Source: Phycisphaeraceae bacterium (GTDB lineage: Bacteria; Planctomycetota; Phycisphaerae; Phycisphaerales; SM1A02). Taken from it: a stretch of 64,000 bases of DNA. The notes below the pieces were generated by a model, which was given only the letters and a program-made list of their open reading frames with translations, did no database searches and had not been told where the DNA came from. The stretch is taken from assembly GCA_019636755.1 (NCBI GenBank), contig JAHBWZ010000003.1:372001-436000 (forward strand), written 5' to 3'. The position numbers were made by a program, and so were the translations under genes. Below are positions 35,292-42,981 of the stretch, one piece after another. Every line of letters starts with the position of its first letter. The stretch's first letter is position 1.

Positions 35292-36254
35292 TCACGGCGG
35301 CCCCGGCGCCGCGGAGGCACCATCCGCGTGAAGCACGCGGCGGAGCAGCCGACCGAACGGGCTTGCCTCACCCGCGGCGTCGCGGAACCAGAGCCGGACA
35401 TGCAGGTCCGGCGCGGCGGGATCGAACCGGAACCATCCCGCCCACCGCGAATCCTCGCGCTGGTCGCCGTTCCAGAACCCGTCCTCGGCGCGACCGTGGG
35501 CAATCCGGCTGCCGCGCGGCGGGAAGCGATCCCATCGCTCCTCGTGACTGCCGAGCAGCGCGGCATCCATGTCCGCCGCATCGCGCTCGTGCGACGTCGC
35601 CAGGATGATGACGTTGCGGGCGCGCGGCATGAACTGCCGCCACGCCCGGGCCAGCAGCCGCCGCATCCGGATCGTCTCGTCCGCGAATCCCTCCGGCAGC
35701 CCGATCATGACCGAGACATGCGGTCGGTCCCACGGGGCCACGATGAGGACGCCTCCGATCTCGCTGCCGTCCGCGTCATCGTGGACGACCAGTTCGTCGC
35801 CCACCCGCGCATGCCGGATGAACTCCTCCGCCTCTCGAACCAGGCGCTGCATCTGCCGGTCATCGACGCCGTCCCGCCATCGGACCGACACGATGTACGG
35901 TCGCATGATCCGCTCGAGCAGGCGCAGGCGTGCTGAGATCGTCACCTGCCGGTCGGTCCCGTCCGTGACCAGGCGCTTGACGTGCACATAGAAGGACTGG
36001 TCGTCGGCAACCACCCGGAAGTCGCAGCCCCGACCCTCCGGCGTGGGCGCCTCCCGCGTCAGCGCGCAGCCCTCGGCCAGCAGCGTGCGCGCGATGATCG
36101 CCTCCGCCAGCAGGTCCAGGAACGTCCGATCTCGCTGATGCGATCGGAGCGTCTCCCGGAGCGGGGCCAGCGGATGTGCGCCGGTCCACCCGGCGATGTC
36201 CCGGGCGACCGCCGGATGCACGATGTCGCTGAACTGACCGAGCGGCGCGCTCAC
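35292..36254 (-). CDS. Protein of unknown function, possible PD-(D/E)XK nuclease-like fold
   Basis: A 320-residue soluble protein I cannot name. Residues 45-95 carry LLAEAIIARTLLAEG, then GRGCDFRVVADDQ, then SFYVHVKRL. The spacing of E51, D78 and the strand ending in K93 resembles the helix-Glu, Asp, (E/Q/x)xK core of PD-(D/E)XK nucleases, though the residue before VK is His, not Glu or Gln. The second half (GVLIVAPWDRPHVSVMIGLP and MPRARNVIILATSHERDAAD) looks like another alpha/beta region. The GTG start at 36254 overlaps the hflX stop (GTGA), so it is probably translated with hflX. Function and activity are open. Confidence 0.6.
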   Translation of the reverse strand: MSAPLGQFSDIVHPAVARDIAGWTGAHPLAPLRETLRSHQRDRTFLDLLAEAIIARTLLAEGCALTREAPTPEGRGCDFRVVADDQSFYVHVKRLVTDGTDRQVTISARLRLLERIMRPYIVSVRWRDGVDDRQMQRLVREAEEFIRHARVGDELVVHDDADGSEIGGVLIVAPWDRPHVSVMIGLPEGFADETIRMRRLLARAWRQFMPRARNVIILATSHERDAADMDAALLGSHEERWDRFPPRGSRIAHGRAEDGFWNGDQREDSRWAGWFRFDPAAPDLHVRLWFRDAAGEASPFGRLLRRVLHADGASAAPGPP

Positions 36255-37666
36255 GTGGCGTGCAGCCGATGGTGCGGCGGAATCCGCGGGACACCCGGGT
36301 CCGACGGCACGTCGAACCGCCGTCTCGCCGAGGCGGACGGCTCACCGTCGGTCCGGAGTTCGGTCGAGAGCGCTGCGAGCCGGTCGAACTGCCGCGCGCC
36401 GATCCGGCACCGGTAGCGGGCCCGCCCGTCGTCCCAGGCGCGGGAGAGAATCTCGGTCCGCCGCTCGATGAAGTTGACCGCACGCCCGTCCGACGACGGC
36501 AGTTCGATCTCGACCTCGCGGACCGGCCCGATGGCACGGTCGCGCACGGCCTCCGCCAGTTCCGCGAGTCCCTCCCCGGTCACCGCGCTGACCGCGATCG
36601 CCTCGGGCCACCGGTTGAGCAGGACCAGCAGGTCGGTCCGCCGCTCCAGCCGGTCGACCTTGTTGAGAACGAGCAGCCGCGGCTGACCCGCGGCGCCGAT
36701 CTCGTCGAGTGTCCTGCGCACGATGTCGAGCTGCATCTCCGCGGTCCGGTCCGCCGCGTCGACGACGAGCAGCAGGAGCTGGGCATCGATCGCCTCCTCG
36801 AGCGTGGAGCGGAATGAGGCGACGAGATGGTGCGGCAGGTCCCGGATGAACCCGACGGTATCCGAGAGCATGACGCTCTCTCCCCCGCCGACATCCCACC
36901 GCTCGACCCGCGTCGAGAGCGTCGCGAAGAGCTGGTCGTGGGCGAATGCCCCGCCGGCGGTCAGCCGGTTGAAGAGCGTGGACTTTCCCGCGTTGGTGTA
37001 GCCGACCAGCCCGACCGTGAAGTGCTCCGCATTGCGGCGATCCACTTCCATGGCCGTGCGCTTCTCGATCCCGGCGAGTTCGTGCCGGAGCTGGCGGAGC
37101 CTCGACTTCGCCAGGCGGCGATCGATCTCGAGCTGCTGTTCGCCGGGACCGCGGGTCCCGATTCCCACCGGGGCACCGCCCGCCACGCGTTCCAGGTGCG
37201 ACCACATGGCCCGGAGGCGAGGATAGGTGTACTCAACCTGCGCGATCTCGACCTGCAGCCGGGCCGCGCGCGTCGTGGCGCGCCGCGCAAAGATGTCGAG
37301 GATGAGTTCACTGCGATCGATGATCTTGATCGCCAGTGCCGGCTGCTTCTCCGGGTTCAGGTCCTCCTCGAGCGCCCGGATCTGCGACGGCGAGAGATCG
37401 TTGTCGAAGATGGCCAGCGTCGCCCGGGTCGAACCGATCAGGTCTGCCAGTTCTCCCACCTTGCCTTTGCCGAGGTAGGTCCTCGGGTCGGGCGATCCGC
37501 GGTTCTGCTGCAGTTCGCCGACCACGGCCGCGCCGGCCGACTCCGCCAGTGCCCGGAGTTCCCGGAGCGGATCCGCTTCCTCGATCCAGCGTCCCGGCAG
37601 GTGAACGTGGACCAGGACGGCCCGTTCACTCACCACCTTGAGTTGTTCGCGCAGAGGCTGCGACAT
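36251..37666 (-). CDS. hflX: GTPase HflX
   Basis: A 471-residue ribosome-associated GTPase that splits or rescues stalled ribosomes under stress. The N-terminal HflX domain has DPRTYLGKGKVGELADLI and IFDNDLSPSQIRALEED, with RATTRAARLQVEIAQVEYTY leading to the coiled-coil. The G domain has G1 GYTNAGKST, G3 DTVGFIRDLPH and G4 LNKVD. GTRGPGEQQLEIDRR is the diagnostic linker. The C-terminal domain ends in a Pro/Arg-rich tail. The promoter lies directly before ATG 37666 and there is little room for a leader. The downstream nuclease-like gene is translationally coupled. Confidence 0.96.
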   Translation of the reverse strand: MSQPLREQLKVVSERAVLVHVHLPGRWIEEADPLRELRALAESAGAAVVGELQQNRGSPDPRTYLGKGKVGELADLIGSTRATLAIFDNDLSPSQIRALEEDLNPEKQPALAIKIIDRSELILDIFARRATTRAARLQVEIAQVEYTYPRLRAMWSHLERVAGGAPVGIGTRGPGEQQLEIDRRLAKSRLRQLRHELAGIEKRTAMEVDRRNAEHFTVGLVGYTNAGKSTLFNRLTAGGAFAHDQLFATLSTRVERWDVGGGESVMLSDTVGFIRDLPHHLVASFRSTLEEAIDAQLLLLVVDAADRTAEMQLDIVRRTLDEIGAAGQPRLLVLNKVDRLERRTDLLVLLNRWPEAIAVSAVTGEGLAELAEAVRDRAIGPVREVEIELPSSDGRAVNFIERRTEILSRAWDDGRARYRCRIGARQFDRLAALSTELRTDGEPSASARRRFDVPSDPGVPRIPPHHRLHAT

Positions 37667-37675
37667 CCGCCCACG

Positions 37676-37704
37676 ATTCTACAGGCGTCTCCGCCGGGAT
37701 CGAA
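37676..37704 (-). promoter_or_regulatory. Promoter of hflX
   Basis: On the minus strand TTCGAT (37704-37699), 17 bases, TAGAAT (37681-37676). The ATG begins 9 bases after the -10, so the mRNA has almost no leader. Confidence 0.6.
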
Positions 37705-37770
37705 TCCCCGCACCCGACGACGGCCACGCGCGGCCGCCCCGGTCTCGCTCGGTTCGCGGTGCTTCCGGGC

Positions 37771-37776
37771 TACACT
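37771..37776 (+). promoter_or_regulatory. Possible -10 box of ctpA
   Basis: TACACT about 84 bases before the GTG start. No good -35 at standard spacing. Confidence 0.3.
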
Positions 37777-37859
37777 CGGCCGCCGTCAGGCTCGCCCGTC
37801 CCGCCGGATGCCCGTCGATCGCGCCCGGCCGGCGTGGTCGTACCCCGGAGACGAACCCA

Positions 37860-39548
37860 GTGAAGCCGCGCCCCATCCTCGCGCCCGCCCTCTTCTTCTC
37901 GCTCGCCGCCATCCTTCTCGTCACGCTGCCGCGCGCGATCGCGAGCCGGGCCAGCGACTACGACTGGTTCGATCCGATCCTCGAGATCCGGCGCCACATC
38001 ATGCAGAGCTACGTCGATGCGCCGGATGATGCTGATCTGCATACCGGCACGATCGAGGGCATGCTCGGGGCGCTGAACGATCCCTACACGCAATTCATCC
38101 CGCCCGCGGACACGACGGAGTTCAACAAGCAGCTCCGCGGCACCTACGCGGGCATCGGTGCCGAGGTGAACCAGCGCGACGGGTACCTCATGATCGTCTC
38201 ACCGATGGAGGAGTCGCCCGCGCTGCGCGCCGGCATTCTCGCCGGCGACCTGGTGATCGAGATCGAGGGCGTCTCCACCTACCAGAAGCCGATCCAGGAG
38301 TGCATCAACCTGCTGACGGGCGAGGCCGGCACGCCGGTGACCGTGAAGGTCCGGCATCTCGACGGGACGGAGCAGACGATCACGCTGGTCCGGGAGCACA
38401 TCATCACGCGGACCGTGCGCGGGCTCTGGCGCGTCGGCGACCAGTGGTCCTGGTGCCTCGACGGGGACCTGGGGATCGCGTACGTGCGCATCACGCAGTT
38501 CAACGCGTCGACCGCGCACGAACTCGCCGACGCGCTCAGCACGGCGCTTGCGACCTCGGGACTGAACGGACTGGTGCTCGACCTGCGCGACAACCCCGGC
38601 GGCGGACTGCCGGTCGCGGTCGCGGTCGCGGATCTCTTCCTTCCCTCGGGGACGATCGTCAGCATCCATCCGCGGATGGGAACCGGCGAGACATTCCGCG
38701 CCTCCGCCCCCGGCACGCTGCCCGACTTCCCGATGGTGATCCTCGTCAACGGGAACTCGGCCTCGGCGAGCGAGATCGTCGCCGGCGCGCTGCAGGAAGC
38801 GGGACGCGCGAAGGTCCTGGGGACCCGCACGTTCGGCAAGGGCTCGGTGCAGGAGGTCCGGCCGCTCGAGTACGGCGCCGGCACGCTCAAACTCACGACC
38901 GCGTACTACCACCTTCCGAGCGGCCGGATCATCCACCGGCGACAGGATGCGACGACCTGGGGTGTCGATCCGGATCCGGGCTTCGTGGTGGCGGTCTCCG
39001 ACGTGGACTACCGGACGATGATGCGCAACCGACGGGAGTTCGAGATCATCCGCGCCCGGGGCGTCAGCGCCGACGGCGCCGTCGATCGCTGCGCGAGCGC
39101 TGACTGGATCCGCGGGACACTCGCCGACACGCAACTCGCCGTGGCTGCGGACGTGCTTGCGGCCCGGTTGCGCGGTGAACCTTGGCCGACCGCCCCGTCC
39201 GACGACCCGGCGCAGACCGCCTTCCGGCAGGAGATCGGCCGGGCCACCGCCATGCGGATGCACCTCTATCAGCAGCTCGATGAACTCGAGCGCCGGATCG
39301 AGCAACTGGAGGGCGTCGCCGCGGAGGCGGGTGCGCGCCGGCTGATTCCGGAAGGCGTGGACCTCGCCGAGGGCACGATCGAGATCCGTGACCGGGCGGG
39401 CGCCGTCGTCGCCACATTCATCATCGAAGGCGGCGACGTCGGGCTCGCCCTCCGCACGCTCGACCTCACGCCCGCGATCGCCGCGCCGGCCGGACCGGGA
39501 GAGCCGGTCGCGCCACCGGTATCCCCGGAGACCGCATCCGACCGATGA
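37860..39548 (+). CDS. Carboxy-terminal processing protease (S41 family)
   Basis: A 562-residue exported serine protease of the CtpA/Prc type. The N-terminus after GTG (KPRPILAPALFFSLAAILLV) is a signal/anchor. DPYTQFIPP leads into a PDZ domain (GIGAEVNQRDGYLMIVSPM). The S41 core has catalytic S302 in GNSASASEI and K327 in RTFGKGSVQ, 25 residues apart as in plant D1 protease, so the Ser-Lys dyad is intact. After about residue 470 is a charged helical extension (QQLDELERRIEQLEG), probably coiled coil, not found in all Ctp enzymes. GTG at 37860 with GGAG upstream is preferred over the long frame from 37638. Its TGA overlaps the tsaD ATG. Confidence 0.93.
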   Translation: MKPRPILAPALFFSLAAILLVTLPRAIASRASDYDWFDPILEIRRHIMQSYVDAPDDADLHTGTIEGMLGALNDPYTQFIPPADTTEFNKQLRGTYAGIGAEVNQRDGYLMIVSPMEESPALRAGILAGDLVIEIEGVSTYQKPIQECINLLTGEAGTPVTVKVRHLDGTEQTITLVREHIITRTVRGLWRVGDQWSWCLDGDLGIAYVRITQFNASTAHELADALSTALATSGLNGLVLDLRDNPGGGLPVAVAVADLFLPSGTIVSIHPRMGTGETFRASAPGTLPDFPMVILVNGNSASASEIVAGALQEAGRAKVLGTRTFGKGSVQEVRPLEYGAGTLKLTTAYYHLPSGRIIHRRQDATTWGVDPDPGFVVAVSDVDYRTMMRNRREFEIIRARGVSADGAVDRCASADWIRGTLADTQLAVAADVLAARLRGEPWPTAPSDDPAQTAFRQEIGRATAMRMHLYQQLDELERRIEQLEGVAAEAGARRLIPEGVDLAEGTIEIRDRAGAVVATFIIEGGDVGLALRTLDLTPAIAAPAGPGEPVAPPVSPETASDR

Positions 39549-40624
39549 CCGGCTCTGATTCCGGCGGACTCATCCTCGGCATCGAGACGTCCTGCGACGA
39601 GACCGCGGCTGCGATCGTCCGTCAGGGCCGCGATGTTCTGGCCGACACGGTCTGGTCGCAGCACGAGGTCCATCGCCGGTTCGGCGGCATCGTGCCCGAA
39701 CTCGCCAGCCGTGCCCACGTGGAGCGCATCCTGCCGGTCCTCGATGAGACGATGCGCGCGGCGGCCCTGGAGTGGCGGGACCTCAGCGCGATCGCCGTGA
39801 CTGCGGAACCCGGGCTGATCGGCTCGCTCCTCATCGGGCTCACCGCCGGCAAGGCGCTCGCGTGGTCGACCGGCGTACCGCTCATCGGCGTCAACCATGT
39901 CCACGCACACCTGTACGCGGCGCTGCTCAACGGAGACCCGCTCGACGGGCAGGCGCTCGGCCTGGTCGTGTCGGGCGGCCACTCGAGCCTGTTCCGGCTG
40001 GACCCCGGCTTCCGACCGCGCGAGATCGGCCGCACGATCGACGACGCGGTGGGCGAGGCGTTCGACAAGGCCGCGACGATTCTCGGCCTTGGACAGCCCG
40101 GGGGGCCCGCCATCGATCGACTGGCGCGCTGCGGAAACGACCGCGCCGTCGACCTCCCGGTTGCGCAACTCGGGTCGGGCCGGTTCGATTTCTCCTTCAG
40201 CGGACTGAAGACGGCGCTTCTGTACGCCGTCGAAGGTGTGCCCGCGCCGCCGGACCGCGCGCGGCGCGCGGCATCGGGACGGTCCCATCCGGCGCCCGAG
40301 CCGCTGGACGATACGCGCCGACGCGACCTCGCCGCCTCCTTCGAGCGCGCGGCGGTCCGCGCGGTGACACGCACGGTGGACAGGGCGCTGGACGCGCACG
40401 ACGATACCCGGGTACTGATCGCCGGCGGCGGAGTGACGGCGAACTCACGGCTTCGACAGGAACTCGCGCTGCTGTGCGAACGGCGCGGCGTGACGCTCCG
40501 CCTGCCGCCACCTCGCTGGTGCCTGGACAACGCGGCCATGATCGCGGGCATCGCCTGGCTGCGCGCCGCGCGCGGAGAGCACGACGATCTGGCACTCCCC
40601 GCCCGCGCGGTCGTTCCTCGGTGA
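39545..40624 (+). CDS. tsaD: tRNA N6-adenosine threonylcarbamoyltransferase TsaD
   Basis: A 359-residue ASKHA-fold enzyme that transfers threonylcarbamoyl to A37 of ANN-decoding tRNAs. The N-terminus GLILGIETSCDETAAAIV is the family hallmark. The metal ligands are H118 and H122 in NHVHAHLYAAL; VSGGHSSLF, DDAVGEAFDKAA and FSFSGLKTA complete the signature; the C-terminal RWCLDNAAMIAGIAW has the last aspartate. The ATG overlaps the ctpA stop (ATGA), so the two are coupled. No tsaB, tsaC or tsaE is seen here. Confidence 0.97.
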   Translation: MTGSDSGGLILGIETSCDETAAAIVRQGRDVLADTVWSQHEVHRRFGGIVPELASRAHVERILPVLDETMRAAALEWRDLSAIAVTAEPGLIGSLLIGLTAGKALAWSTGVPLIGVNHVHAHLYAALLNGDPLDGQALGLVVSGGHSSLFRLDPGFRPREIGRTIDDAVGEAFDKAATILGLGQPGGPAIDRLARCGNDRAVDLPVAQLGSGRFDFSFSGLKTALLYAVEGVPAPPDRARRAASGRSHPAPEPLDDTRRRDLAASFERAAVRAVTRTVDRALDAHDDTRVLIAGGGVTANSRLRQELALLCERRGVTLRLPPPRWCLDNAAMIAGIAWLRAARGEHDDLALPARAVVPR

Positions 40625-40637
40625 TCGGCCGCCGCGG

Positions 40638-40643
40638 TATGCT
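40638..40643 (+). promoter_or_regulatory. Possible leaderless -10 box of the VOC-release-factor fusion
   Basis: TATGCT is followed by eight bases and the GTG at 40652. No Shine-Dalgarno is present. Confidence 0.3.
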
Positions 40644-40651
40644 GCGCTCCC

Positions 40652-41677
40652 GTGGACGATGATCGTGTCAGCGCCCTCCTGATCGCACCGGAGATCCCGG
40701 TGAACGACCTGCCCGCCGGTGTCGGCTGGTACGGCGAGGTCCTGGGTGTGCGCGCGGGTCATGCCGGACCCGGCGTCGAGGGAGGCACCGTGCTTCCGCT
40801 CATCGCGCCCGACGGGTCGGAGATGATCCGGCTGGTCCGGCTGCCCGAGGGAGACCGGAAGCCGGCGTCGGGGATCCGACTCCTCTTCCGCGTCCCGGGC
40901 CGGCGCCTGATGAACCTGCTCCCCCGGCTCGGCTCCCTCGGGGTGACCGCGAGCGACGGCCGATCCATCGGCCCGGACCATCTCCGCGCGGAACCGGGCG
41001 GCGGATGGTCGCTGCGCTTCGCCGATCCCTGGGGCAACGCGCTGGCCCTCATGACTCCCGACCACGACGTGATCGAGGCATGGCTCGGCGGACTCGCGCT
41101 GCCGACCGAGGAACCGCCCGCGCGGTCCGAACGGCGCGTCCAGGCGCCGCGCGGGCTGCTCATCATCGCCCCGCCGCACCCTGCCACGCTGGACGAAGCG
41201 GAGCTGCTCAGGCACTGCGACATCGTCTTCGGCCGCACCTCGGGCCCGGGCGGGCAGCATCGGAACCGCGTCGAGACCGCGGTGGAACTCACGCATCGTC
41301 CGACCGGCATGGTCGGGTGGGCCGGCGAACGACGGCGTCAGGCAGAGAACCGCGCGGTGGCGCTGCGCCGACTCCGTCTCCGACTCGCCATCCGCGTCCG
41401 CACCGAGATCCGCGGCGATCGCGCGCGTCCCTCGGCCCTCTGGGAACGACGGCGCCAGGGCACGCAGATCCCGGTCAACCCGAAGAATCCGGACTACCCG
41501 GCGCTGCTCGCGGAGGCCCTGGACCTGATCTGGGCCCGTCGCTTCGATGTCGCGGGTGCGGCCGGCGTGCTGGGTGTCAGCATGTCGCAATTGGCCCGCC
41601 TCGTGCGGCACGAGCGGCACGCCTTCGCCATGGTCAACGAAGGCCGCCTGGCGCAGGGCCTTCCGGCGCTGCGCTGA
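40652..41677 (+). CDS. Fusion of a VOC (glyoxalase-fold) domain with a class I release-factor GGQ domain
   Basis: A 341-residue protein. Residues about 13-135 look like a vicinal-oxygen-chelate module: IPVNDLPAGVGWYGEVLGV matches the first strand-helix and WSLRFADPWGNALALM the last strand. Residues about 190-250 are the peptidyl-tRNA hydrolysis domain of class I release factors: RTSGPGGQHRNRVETAVELT carries G200-G201-Q202 in the right context, with HRPTG and a basic helix (RRRQAENRAVALRRLRLRL). A C-terminal region, YPALLAEALDLIWARRFDVA, ends in a small helix-turn-helix-like stretch. There are no codon-recognition domains, as in ArfB/PrfH rescue factors. It probably acts on stalled ribosomes or damaged tRNA-peptides, but the role of the VOC part is unknown. 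GTG at 40652 is the only reasonable start. Confidence 0.8.
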   Translation: MDDDRVSALLIAPEIPVNDLPAGVGWYGEVLGVRAGHAGPGVEGGTVLPLIAPDGSEMIRLVRLPEGDRKPASGIRLLFRVPGRRLMNLLPRLGSLGVTASDGRSIGPDHLRAEPGGGWSLRFADPWGNALALMTPDHDVIEAWLGGLALPTEEPPARSERRVQAPRGLLIIAPPHPATLDEAELLRHCDIVFGRTSGPGGQHRNRVETAVELTHRPTGMVGWAGERRRQAENRAVALRRLRLRLAIRVRTEIRGDRARPSALWERRRQGTQIPVNPKNPDYPALLAEALDLIWARRFDVAGAAGVLGVSMSQLARLVRHERHAFAMVNEGRLAQGLPALR

Positions 41678-41744
41678 GCGGTGCCCGCCGGCCGCACCGC
41701 CGCAGACGCCGGCTGCACGGTGCCTCGATCGGCGCAGCGGCTGA

Positions 41745-41750
41745 TAGCAT
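41745..41750 (+). promoter_or_regulatory. Possible leaderless -10 box of the M20 amidohydrolase gene
   Basis: TAGCAT is followed by seven bases and the ATG at 41758. No Shine-Dalgarno can fit. Confidence 0.35.
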
Positions 41751-41757
41751 CCGCCGG

Positions 41758-42981
41758 ATGCAGACCACCACGGCCACGGTGTCGCCCGCGGAACTCCGCG
41801 CCATGATCGCCGCGGAAATCCCCTCGATCACGGCGCTGCGCCGGGACATGCATGCGCATCCGGAGATCGCCTACGAGGAGTCCCGGACTGCCGGCGTGAT
41901 CCGGCGCGAACTCGACCTGGCCGGCGTCCGCTTCGTCGGAGACCTCGCGGGCGGCACCGGGACGCTGGCGCACCTGCCGGCGGGCACGGGCGGATCGAAC
42001 GGTCCGGTCGCGCTGCGCGCAGACATCGATGCCCTCCCGATCACGGAAGAGACCGGCGCACCGTGGTCGTCCACGCGACCCGGCTGCATGCATGCGTGCG
42101 GACACGACGGGCACACCGCCATCCTCATCGGGACGGCACGCGTGCTCGCGCGGCTGGCGCGATCAACAGGGCTTCCGCAGCCGGTCACCCTGCTCTTCCA
42201 GCCGGCCGAGGAAGGTGGCGCGGGCGGCAAGCGGATGGTGGAGGACGGCTGTCTCGACGGTCGCGTGCTCGGCCCCGCGGTCTCCCGCATCTACGGCCTG
42301 CACGGCTGGACGATGATGCCGCTGGGATCGGTCGGCTCCAGGCCGGGCCCCATGCTCGCCGCGGCGGACCGGTTCACGATCGACATCGTCGGACACGGCG
42401 CTCACGCGGCCCAGCCGCATGCCTCGCGCGATCCGATCGTGGCCGGCAGCGCCATCGTGCAGGCGCTGCAGTCGATCGTGGCCCGCGCGATCGATCCCTT
42501 CGATCCGGTCGTCGTTTCCGTGACGCAGTTCCACGCGGGCACCACCCACAACATCATCCCGGAGCGCGCCTCGGTCATGGGCACGGTCAGGACGCTCCGC
42601 GCCGAGTCGAAGGAGATCGCGATCGCGCGGCTGCACACGATCGCGGAGGGGATCGCCCGCGCGCACGGATGCACGGCGCACATCGAGTACCACCACGGCT
42701 ACCCGGTCACGCGCAACGACCCCCGGACGTTCGGGACATTCGAGGACGTCGCCCGTCGCACCCTGGGAAGTGCCCGCGTTCAACCGGTGGAACACCCCAG
42801 CATGGGCGGCGAGGACTTCTCGTATTACGGCGAGGTCGTACCCGCCTGCTTCTTCCTGCTGGGCCTGCTGCCGGACGGAGAGGGATCCATGCCCGGCCTG
42901 CATCATCCGCGTTTCGACTTCAACGATGACGCGCTCGCCACCGGCATCGAGGTCTTCGTGCGGCTGGCACTGGAAGGCTGA
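41758..42981 (+). CDS. M20-family amidohydrolase (N-acyl-amino acid hydrolase type)
   Basis: A 407-residue metallohydrolase of the M20D branch (hippurate hydrolase, IAA-amino acid hydrolase, N-acetyl-diaminopimelate deacetylase). Signatures: LRRDMHAHPEIAYEE near the N-terminus, ALRADIDALPI, CMHACGHDGHTAIL with metal ligands C110, H112 and downstream residues, FQPAEEGGAGGKRMVEDG with the catalytic glutamate, a dimerisation lid (IVGHGAHAAQPHASRDPI) and MGGEDFSYY near the end. It hydrolyses an amide bond in a small N-acyl amino acid; the exact substrate cannot be read from sequence. The start is fixed by the -10 box 7 bases upstream; longer in-frame starts belong to the overlapping upstream gene. 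Confidence 0.92.
   Translation: MQTTTATVSPAELRAMIAAEIPSITALRRDMHAHPEIAYEESRTAGVIRRELDLAGVRFVGDLAGGTGTLAHLPAGTGGSNGPVALRADIDALPITEETGAPWSSTRPGCMHACGHDGHTAILIGTARVLARLARSTGLPQPVTLLFQPAEEGGAGGKRMVEDGCLDGRVLGPAVSRIYGLHGWTMMPLGSVGSRPGPMLAAADRFTIDIVGHGAHAAQPHASRDPIVAGSAIVQALQSIVARAIDPFDPVVVSVTQFHAGTTHNIIPERASVMGTVRTLRAESKEIAIARLHTIAEGIARAHGCTAHIEYHHGYPVTRNDPRTFGTFEDVARRTLGSARVQPVEHPSMGGEDFSYYGEVVPACFFLLGLLPDGEGSMPGLHHPRFDFNDDALATGIEVFVRLALEG

Follow-up and report, generated by a model that had tools for sequence, protein, structure and literature searches.

An open reading frame joining a VOC-fold domain to a release-factor-type GGQ domain in a Phycisphaeraceae bacterium

In the window, the whole 64,000-nucleotide stretch of DNA that was analysed, we found an open reading frame of 341 residues (40652–41677, plus strand) in which a VOC-fold domain, a linker, a release-factor-type GGQ domain and a four-helix domain follow one another. 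The frame was established from the ORF call, the steady codon-position G+C and a scan for stops and starts. This bore out the original prediction that a glyoxalase-fold (VOC) domain is fused here to a GGQ domain, as both domains were supported and lie in one uninterrupted frame. The architecture of the fusion is well supported; its mechanism we infer. It is moderately probable that the gene is a real, lineage-restricted fusion, in which a planctomycete GGQ hydrolase of the rescue type gained a non-catalytic VOC domain for binding or dimerisation. The fusion was seen in a single genome, so there is no conservation showing that the VOC half is useful, and the bulky N-terminal domain might hinder entry into the A site, which is a point against this explanation.

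The GGQ domain (residues 170–252; 41159–41407, plus strand) was recognised by a Pfam model, by structure prediction and by PDB matches. The Pfam RF-1 model covered residues 190–249 with 53.7 bits (cut-off 35). The catalytic loop, which had been predicted to be intact, reads GPGGQHRN (residues 198–205), and its GPGGQ motif (residues 198–202; 41243–41257, plus strand) showed little or no variation among 52 relatives. The absence of stop-codon recognition domains, also predicted, was seen in the profiles of RF1 and RF2, which matched the GGQ part only and scored 43–47 bits against cut-offs of 370–423. The protein likewise fell short of the NCBIfam cut-offs for PrfH (44.9 bits versus 166.65) and ArfB (23.6 bits versus 100). 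The structures of the two halves were predicted separately, so that the scores apply to each half, and the model of the GGQ half, comprising the GGQ and helical domains, had a pLDDT of 92.5. Its GGQ domain superposed on RF1, RF2 and PrfH structures with Z of 8–9 over ∼70 residues, and these PDB matches spanned residues 23–102 of the model, with the C-terminal domain outside them. The model contained no alpha-i helix, there being only a short turn between strands 57–65 and 71–74.

It was found that residues ∼166–341 belong to an old, conserved planctomycete family of GGQ plus helical proteins, which is normally stand-alone. The fusion shares the conserved C-terminal region of this family, keeps all its invariant GGQ and C-terminal residues, and showed 58–67 percent identity to stand-alone GGQ proteins within the taxonomic family of the source genome. 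The gene was present in most of the 181 genomes of that taxonomic family, and of 392 genomes sampled phylum-wide, many carried full-length members; in the source genome, the fusion is the sole member. No specific Pfam or NCBIfam model for the protein family was found. Among the 181 and 392 genomes, the source genome was the only one whose match extended into the VOC half uninterrupted by a stop. The pairing is thus as unusual as had been supposed, occurring in one genome among 181 of its taxonomic family and in none elsewhere in the phylum sample.

Several candidates for further fusions were rejected. Two matches reaching residue ∼103 (G038 and G201) contained a stop codon and were extensions over upstream sequence. 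Long open frames of up to 828 residues lay upstream of the GGQ genes of some relatives; nearly all of these genes have a start near the motif, and the long frames look like GC-rich open frames. The search of plasmids for relatives of the fusion gave no match. Matches on viral contigs were to other GGQ proteins and covered essentially the GGQ part only; at least 124 stretches of viral contigs (L118–L197), many of the contigs being over 100 kb, encode such release-factor-like proteins. Two further observations were made among the relatives. One stand-alone protein (G042, L013:1507-2025) reads GPGGSHRN, with the catalytic Gln replaced by Ser, and would be inactive unless the Ser is a sequencing error. 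In genomes G430, G292, G385, G565, G568, G506 and G513, all of one taxonomic family, a second, shorter match to the GGQ domain only was observed in frames of ∼115–146 residues besides the full-length member.

Comparison of gene neighbourhoods showed that the place of the fusion gene is a conserved one. Its GTG start codon lies 27 nt past the stop of tsaD (39545–40624, plus strand), the conserved upstream neighbour, and the conserved downstream neighbour encodes an M20-family peptidase/amidohydrolase (41758–42981, plus strand). Divergent from these, and also conserved, is hflX (36251–37666, minus strand), which encodes a ribosome-binding GTPase; the neighbours scanned at the locus were hflX, ctpA, tsaD, the M20 gene and a flavin reductase gene. 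The order hflX (divergent), ctpA, tsaD, GGQ, M20 (36251–42981 in the window; compared at loci L208–L221) recurs in the taxonomic family of the source genome, where the GGQ gene usually comes directly after tsaD, frequently overlapping it by 4 nt, and M20 is usually next; in several members rplK/rplA were found further along. A second family of the order showed hflX-ctpA-tsaD-GGQ without M20, and in the other lineages inspected the GGQ gene was located elsewhere. Between tsaD and the GGQ domain, the source genome has the VOC domain of ∼150 residues in frame; relatives show a short gap at this place, and a few of them have other genes there. From the gene order, HflX and the GGQ protein may be functionally connected in the two families concerned.

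GGQ domains of known proteins enter the peptidyl-transferase centre and hydrolyse peptidyl-tRNA. The intact motif and the predicted fold suggest that the loop of the fusion would do the same without reading a stop codon. The putative substrates are stalled 70S ribosomes, or the 50S-peptidyl-tRNA left after splitting by HflX. The fusion may have arisen from an ancestral stand-alone gene for a GGQ plus four-helix protein in the hflX/ctpA/tsaD/GGQ/M20 neighbourhood, when a VOC domain, akin to the VOC proteins of planctomycetes but lacking their metal ligands, came to lie after tsaD and in frame with the GGQ gene. The VOC domain would then act as a non-catalytic module for ligand binding or dimerisation, and the helical C-terminal domain would presumably anchor the protein to the ribosome or tRNA in place of stop-codon domains or an ArfB-type tail.

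The frame may be real and still yield the GGQ half by internal initiation, with or without the fusion protein. Two starts in the fusion frame, ATG at 41051 and GTG at 41069, lie 58–64 residues upstream of the GGQ motif and are the nearest internal ones. However, they map to the final strand of the VOC fold and to the helix that follows, and they are farther from the motif than the starts of nearly all relatives, which mostly lie 20–45 residues before it, with a span of roughly 20–60 residues in the relatives inspected. We consider this reading unlikely.

The VOC half (residues 7–147; 40670–41092, plus strand) consists of two beta-alpha-beta-beta-beta modules and was supported by BLAST and HMM relatives, by its predicted fold and by PDB matches. 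The Pfam Glyoxalase match was marginal, at 16.1 bits, or 18.9 bits when the half was scanned alone, against a cut-off of 20.6. Two clear planctomycete VOC proteins were matched with E = 6.7e-9 and 1.2e-6. The closest VOC relatives found were free-standing proteins of other planctomycetes, with about 33 percent identity; the VOC paralogues of the source genome were rejected as the origin of this half, none being close and all being more distant than the proteins of other planctomycetes. Predicted with 28 homologues as the alignment, the half gave the two modules with a pLDDT of 87.7 and superposed on 2rk0 with Z of 13.7 and an rmsd of 2.4 over 120 residues, and on 5umq with Z of 12.1. The VOC fold, originally noticed from its first and last strands, was thus extended to the whole half.

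When the VOC half, trimmed of six N-terminal residues so that its first strand was placed correctly, was aligned with the 28 homologues, all three positions of the His/His/Glu-type metal ligands were found to be lost in the fusion. The position in beta-1 is Ala12 (40685–40687, plus strand; His in 28 of 28), the residue in beta-5 is missing (His in 23 and Arg in 5 of the homologues), and the position in beta-8 is Ala132 (41045–41047, plus strand; Glu in 24 and Gln in 4). Because all three positions are lost, a metal-dependent reaction by the VOC half is unlikely.

The loss of the ligands would suit a binding role, and the antibiotic-binding VOC proteins TnmS1 and TnmS3 were among the best fold matches. 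The VOC half might bind a small molecule, for instance an antibiotic that acts on the ribosome, either sequestering it or switching the rescue activity. But many VOC enzymes scored equally well, and no resistance or biosynthesis genes were found among the neighbours examined at the fusion locus; we regard this role as improbable.

The conserved C-terminal region (41408–41674, plus strand) was supported by alignments and by the model, in which four helices (residues ∼282–334) were confidently predicted; the original prediction had overlooked this folded domain. It is not Lys-rich, and it was conserved to about the same degree as the catalytic domain in the alignments of relatives. Weak similarity to the Fis-type helix-turn-helix model HTH_8 was seen in 5 of 52 members, the best seen being 18.9 bits against a cut-off of 22. 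These matches raise the alternative that the family is a nucleic-acid-binding regulator acting through an HTH-like C-terminal domain rather than a ribosomal hydrolase. Against it stand the near-invariance of the GGQ glutamine and its surroundings, and the translation genes nearby, namely hflX, tsaD and, further on, rplK/rplA, which leave a regulator quite improbable. For the hydrolase of the rescue type that we favour, the C-terminal domain is a candidate anchor, because the GGQ domain of ArfB needs its C-terminal extension for ribosome binding.

A bolder form of the rescue hypothesis is that the GGQ plus helical proteins constitute an undescribed, HflX-partnered rescue class acting on split 50S-peptidyl-tRNA, and that in this lineage the VOC domain, its metal site gone, lets rescue respond to a small molecule, perhaps an antibiotic directed at the ribosome. 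We regard the full proposal as a long shot.

The continuity of the frame was inspected in particular at the junction. Codon-position G+C kept the same phase and range from the VOC half through the linker into the GGQ half. All reading frames are free of stops over 41071–41215. They also lack ATG, GTG and TTG codons over 41081–41158, the stretch in which the start of an independent GGQ gene would be expected. This stretch includes the Pro/Arg/Glu-rich linker (residues 148–169; 41093–41158, plus strand), which is flanked by residues of low model confidence. The frame is thus continuous, the phase steady and the linker without an alternative start, which speaks against the possibility, raised originally, that a frameshift might join two genes. 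Whether homologues keep the two parts separate had also been asked: the GGQ gene does stand alone in all relatives, with no VOC gene beside it, yet the unbroken frame of the fusion makes the suspected artefact unlikely. An indel or misassembly joining separate VOC and GGQ genes would also be in keeping with the way in which both ATG 41051 and GTG 41069 share bases with a TGA of the +1 frame, which resembles the tsaD-GGQ overlaps of relatives. These overlaps also make an origin from two coupled genes, or internal initiation at the present day, conceivable. VOC homology, however, does not end at ATG 41051 but runs on beyond it in the fusion frame, so that a sequencing indel would have to be confined to a few bases near that codon, and the host contig is 560 kb long in an assembly of 20 contigs that is 99 percent complete. 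Judged from these features of the sequence, the fusion is unlikely to stem from a frameshift or an assembly error, and two separate genes are a very doubtful alternative.

The weakest reading, in which the VOC half works as a metalloenzyme that recognises or repairs a modified translation substrate and is coupled to peptide release, is extremely improbable: the fold is real, but all three ligand positions conserved in homologues are gone, the fusion itself is the sole tie of this half to RNA or translation, and the recognition of a damaged or modified substrate, which the original prediction had proposed, found no evidence.

The fusion would be an additional rescue route in its host, as the source genome also encodes RF1, RF2, an ArfB-type protein, SmpB and tmRNA. 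The ArfB-type protein (L113:949-1893) has a typical basic C-terminal tail; its listed ORF start gives a long N-terminal extension, and its true start is uncertain.

No paper was found in a literature search for release factor, glyoxalase, GGQ and fusion together, and no description of the planctomycete GGQ plus helical family was found in the literature searched. Bacterial GGQ domains were surveyed by Burroughs and Aravind (PMC6514570), and in the passages found in the main text of that survey there is no mention of a VOC fusion or of this family. The fusion is a single-genome architecture assembled from two known domain types. If translated as written, it offers a natural test of how a rescue-type GGQ factor copes with, or makes use of, an extra N-terminal domain within the ribosomal A site. 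Arguably, the better lead is the GGQ plus helical family, which occurs across the phylum and in two taxonomic families has its gene next to hflX and tsaD; with its conserved, folded C-terminal domain, it may represent another way to release ribosomes that have stalled.

Among known systems, the VOC glyoxalase, bleomycin-resistance and antibiotic-binding proteins (2rk0, TnmS1) have the same fold as the N-terminal half over the whole domain, whereas the fusion has lost their metal-ligand positions and carries a GGQ domain. The stand-alone planctomycete proteins share the GGQ domain, the C-terminal four-helix domain and the place after tsaD with the fusion, but have no VOC domain. PrfH (RFH), a hallmark of which is an operon with the RNA ligase RtcB, was one of the best-scoring matches to the GGQ domain both by profile and by fold, although its C-terminal domain differs. 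ArfB (YaeJ) and ICT1 likewise have a GGQ domain with the GPGGQ motif and no stop-codon-recognition domains. The GGQ domain of ArfB alone fails to bind ribosomes and depends on the C-terminal extension, a flexible Lys/Arg-rich tail (PMC3950681), where the fusion has a folded helical domain; moreover, class 1 ArfB and ICT1 have an alpha-i insertion between the last core strands, which the fusion lacks. C12orf65/mtRF-R, which was solved on a split large subunit (7a5h), resembles the fusion in having a GGQ domain without alpha-i, but is mitochondrial and has a basic helical C-terminal extension instead of the four-helix domain. HflX is a ribosome-splitting GTPase (PMC12493154). Action of the fusion on 50S-peptidyl-tRNA is an attractive idea, as the adjacency to hflX and the missing alpha-i recall C12orf65/mtRF-R.
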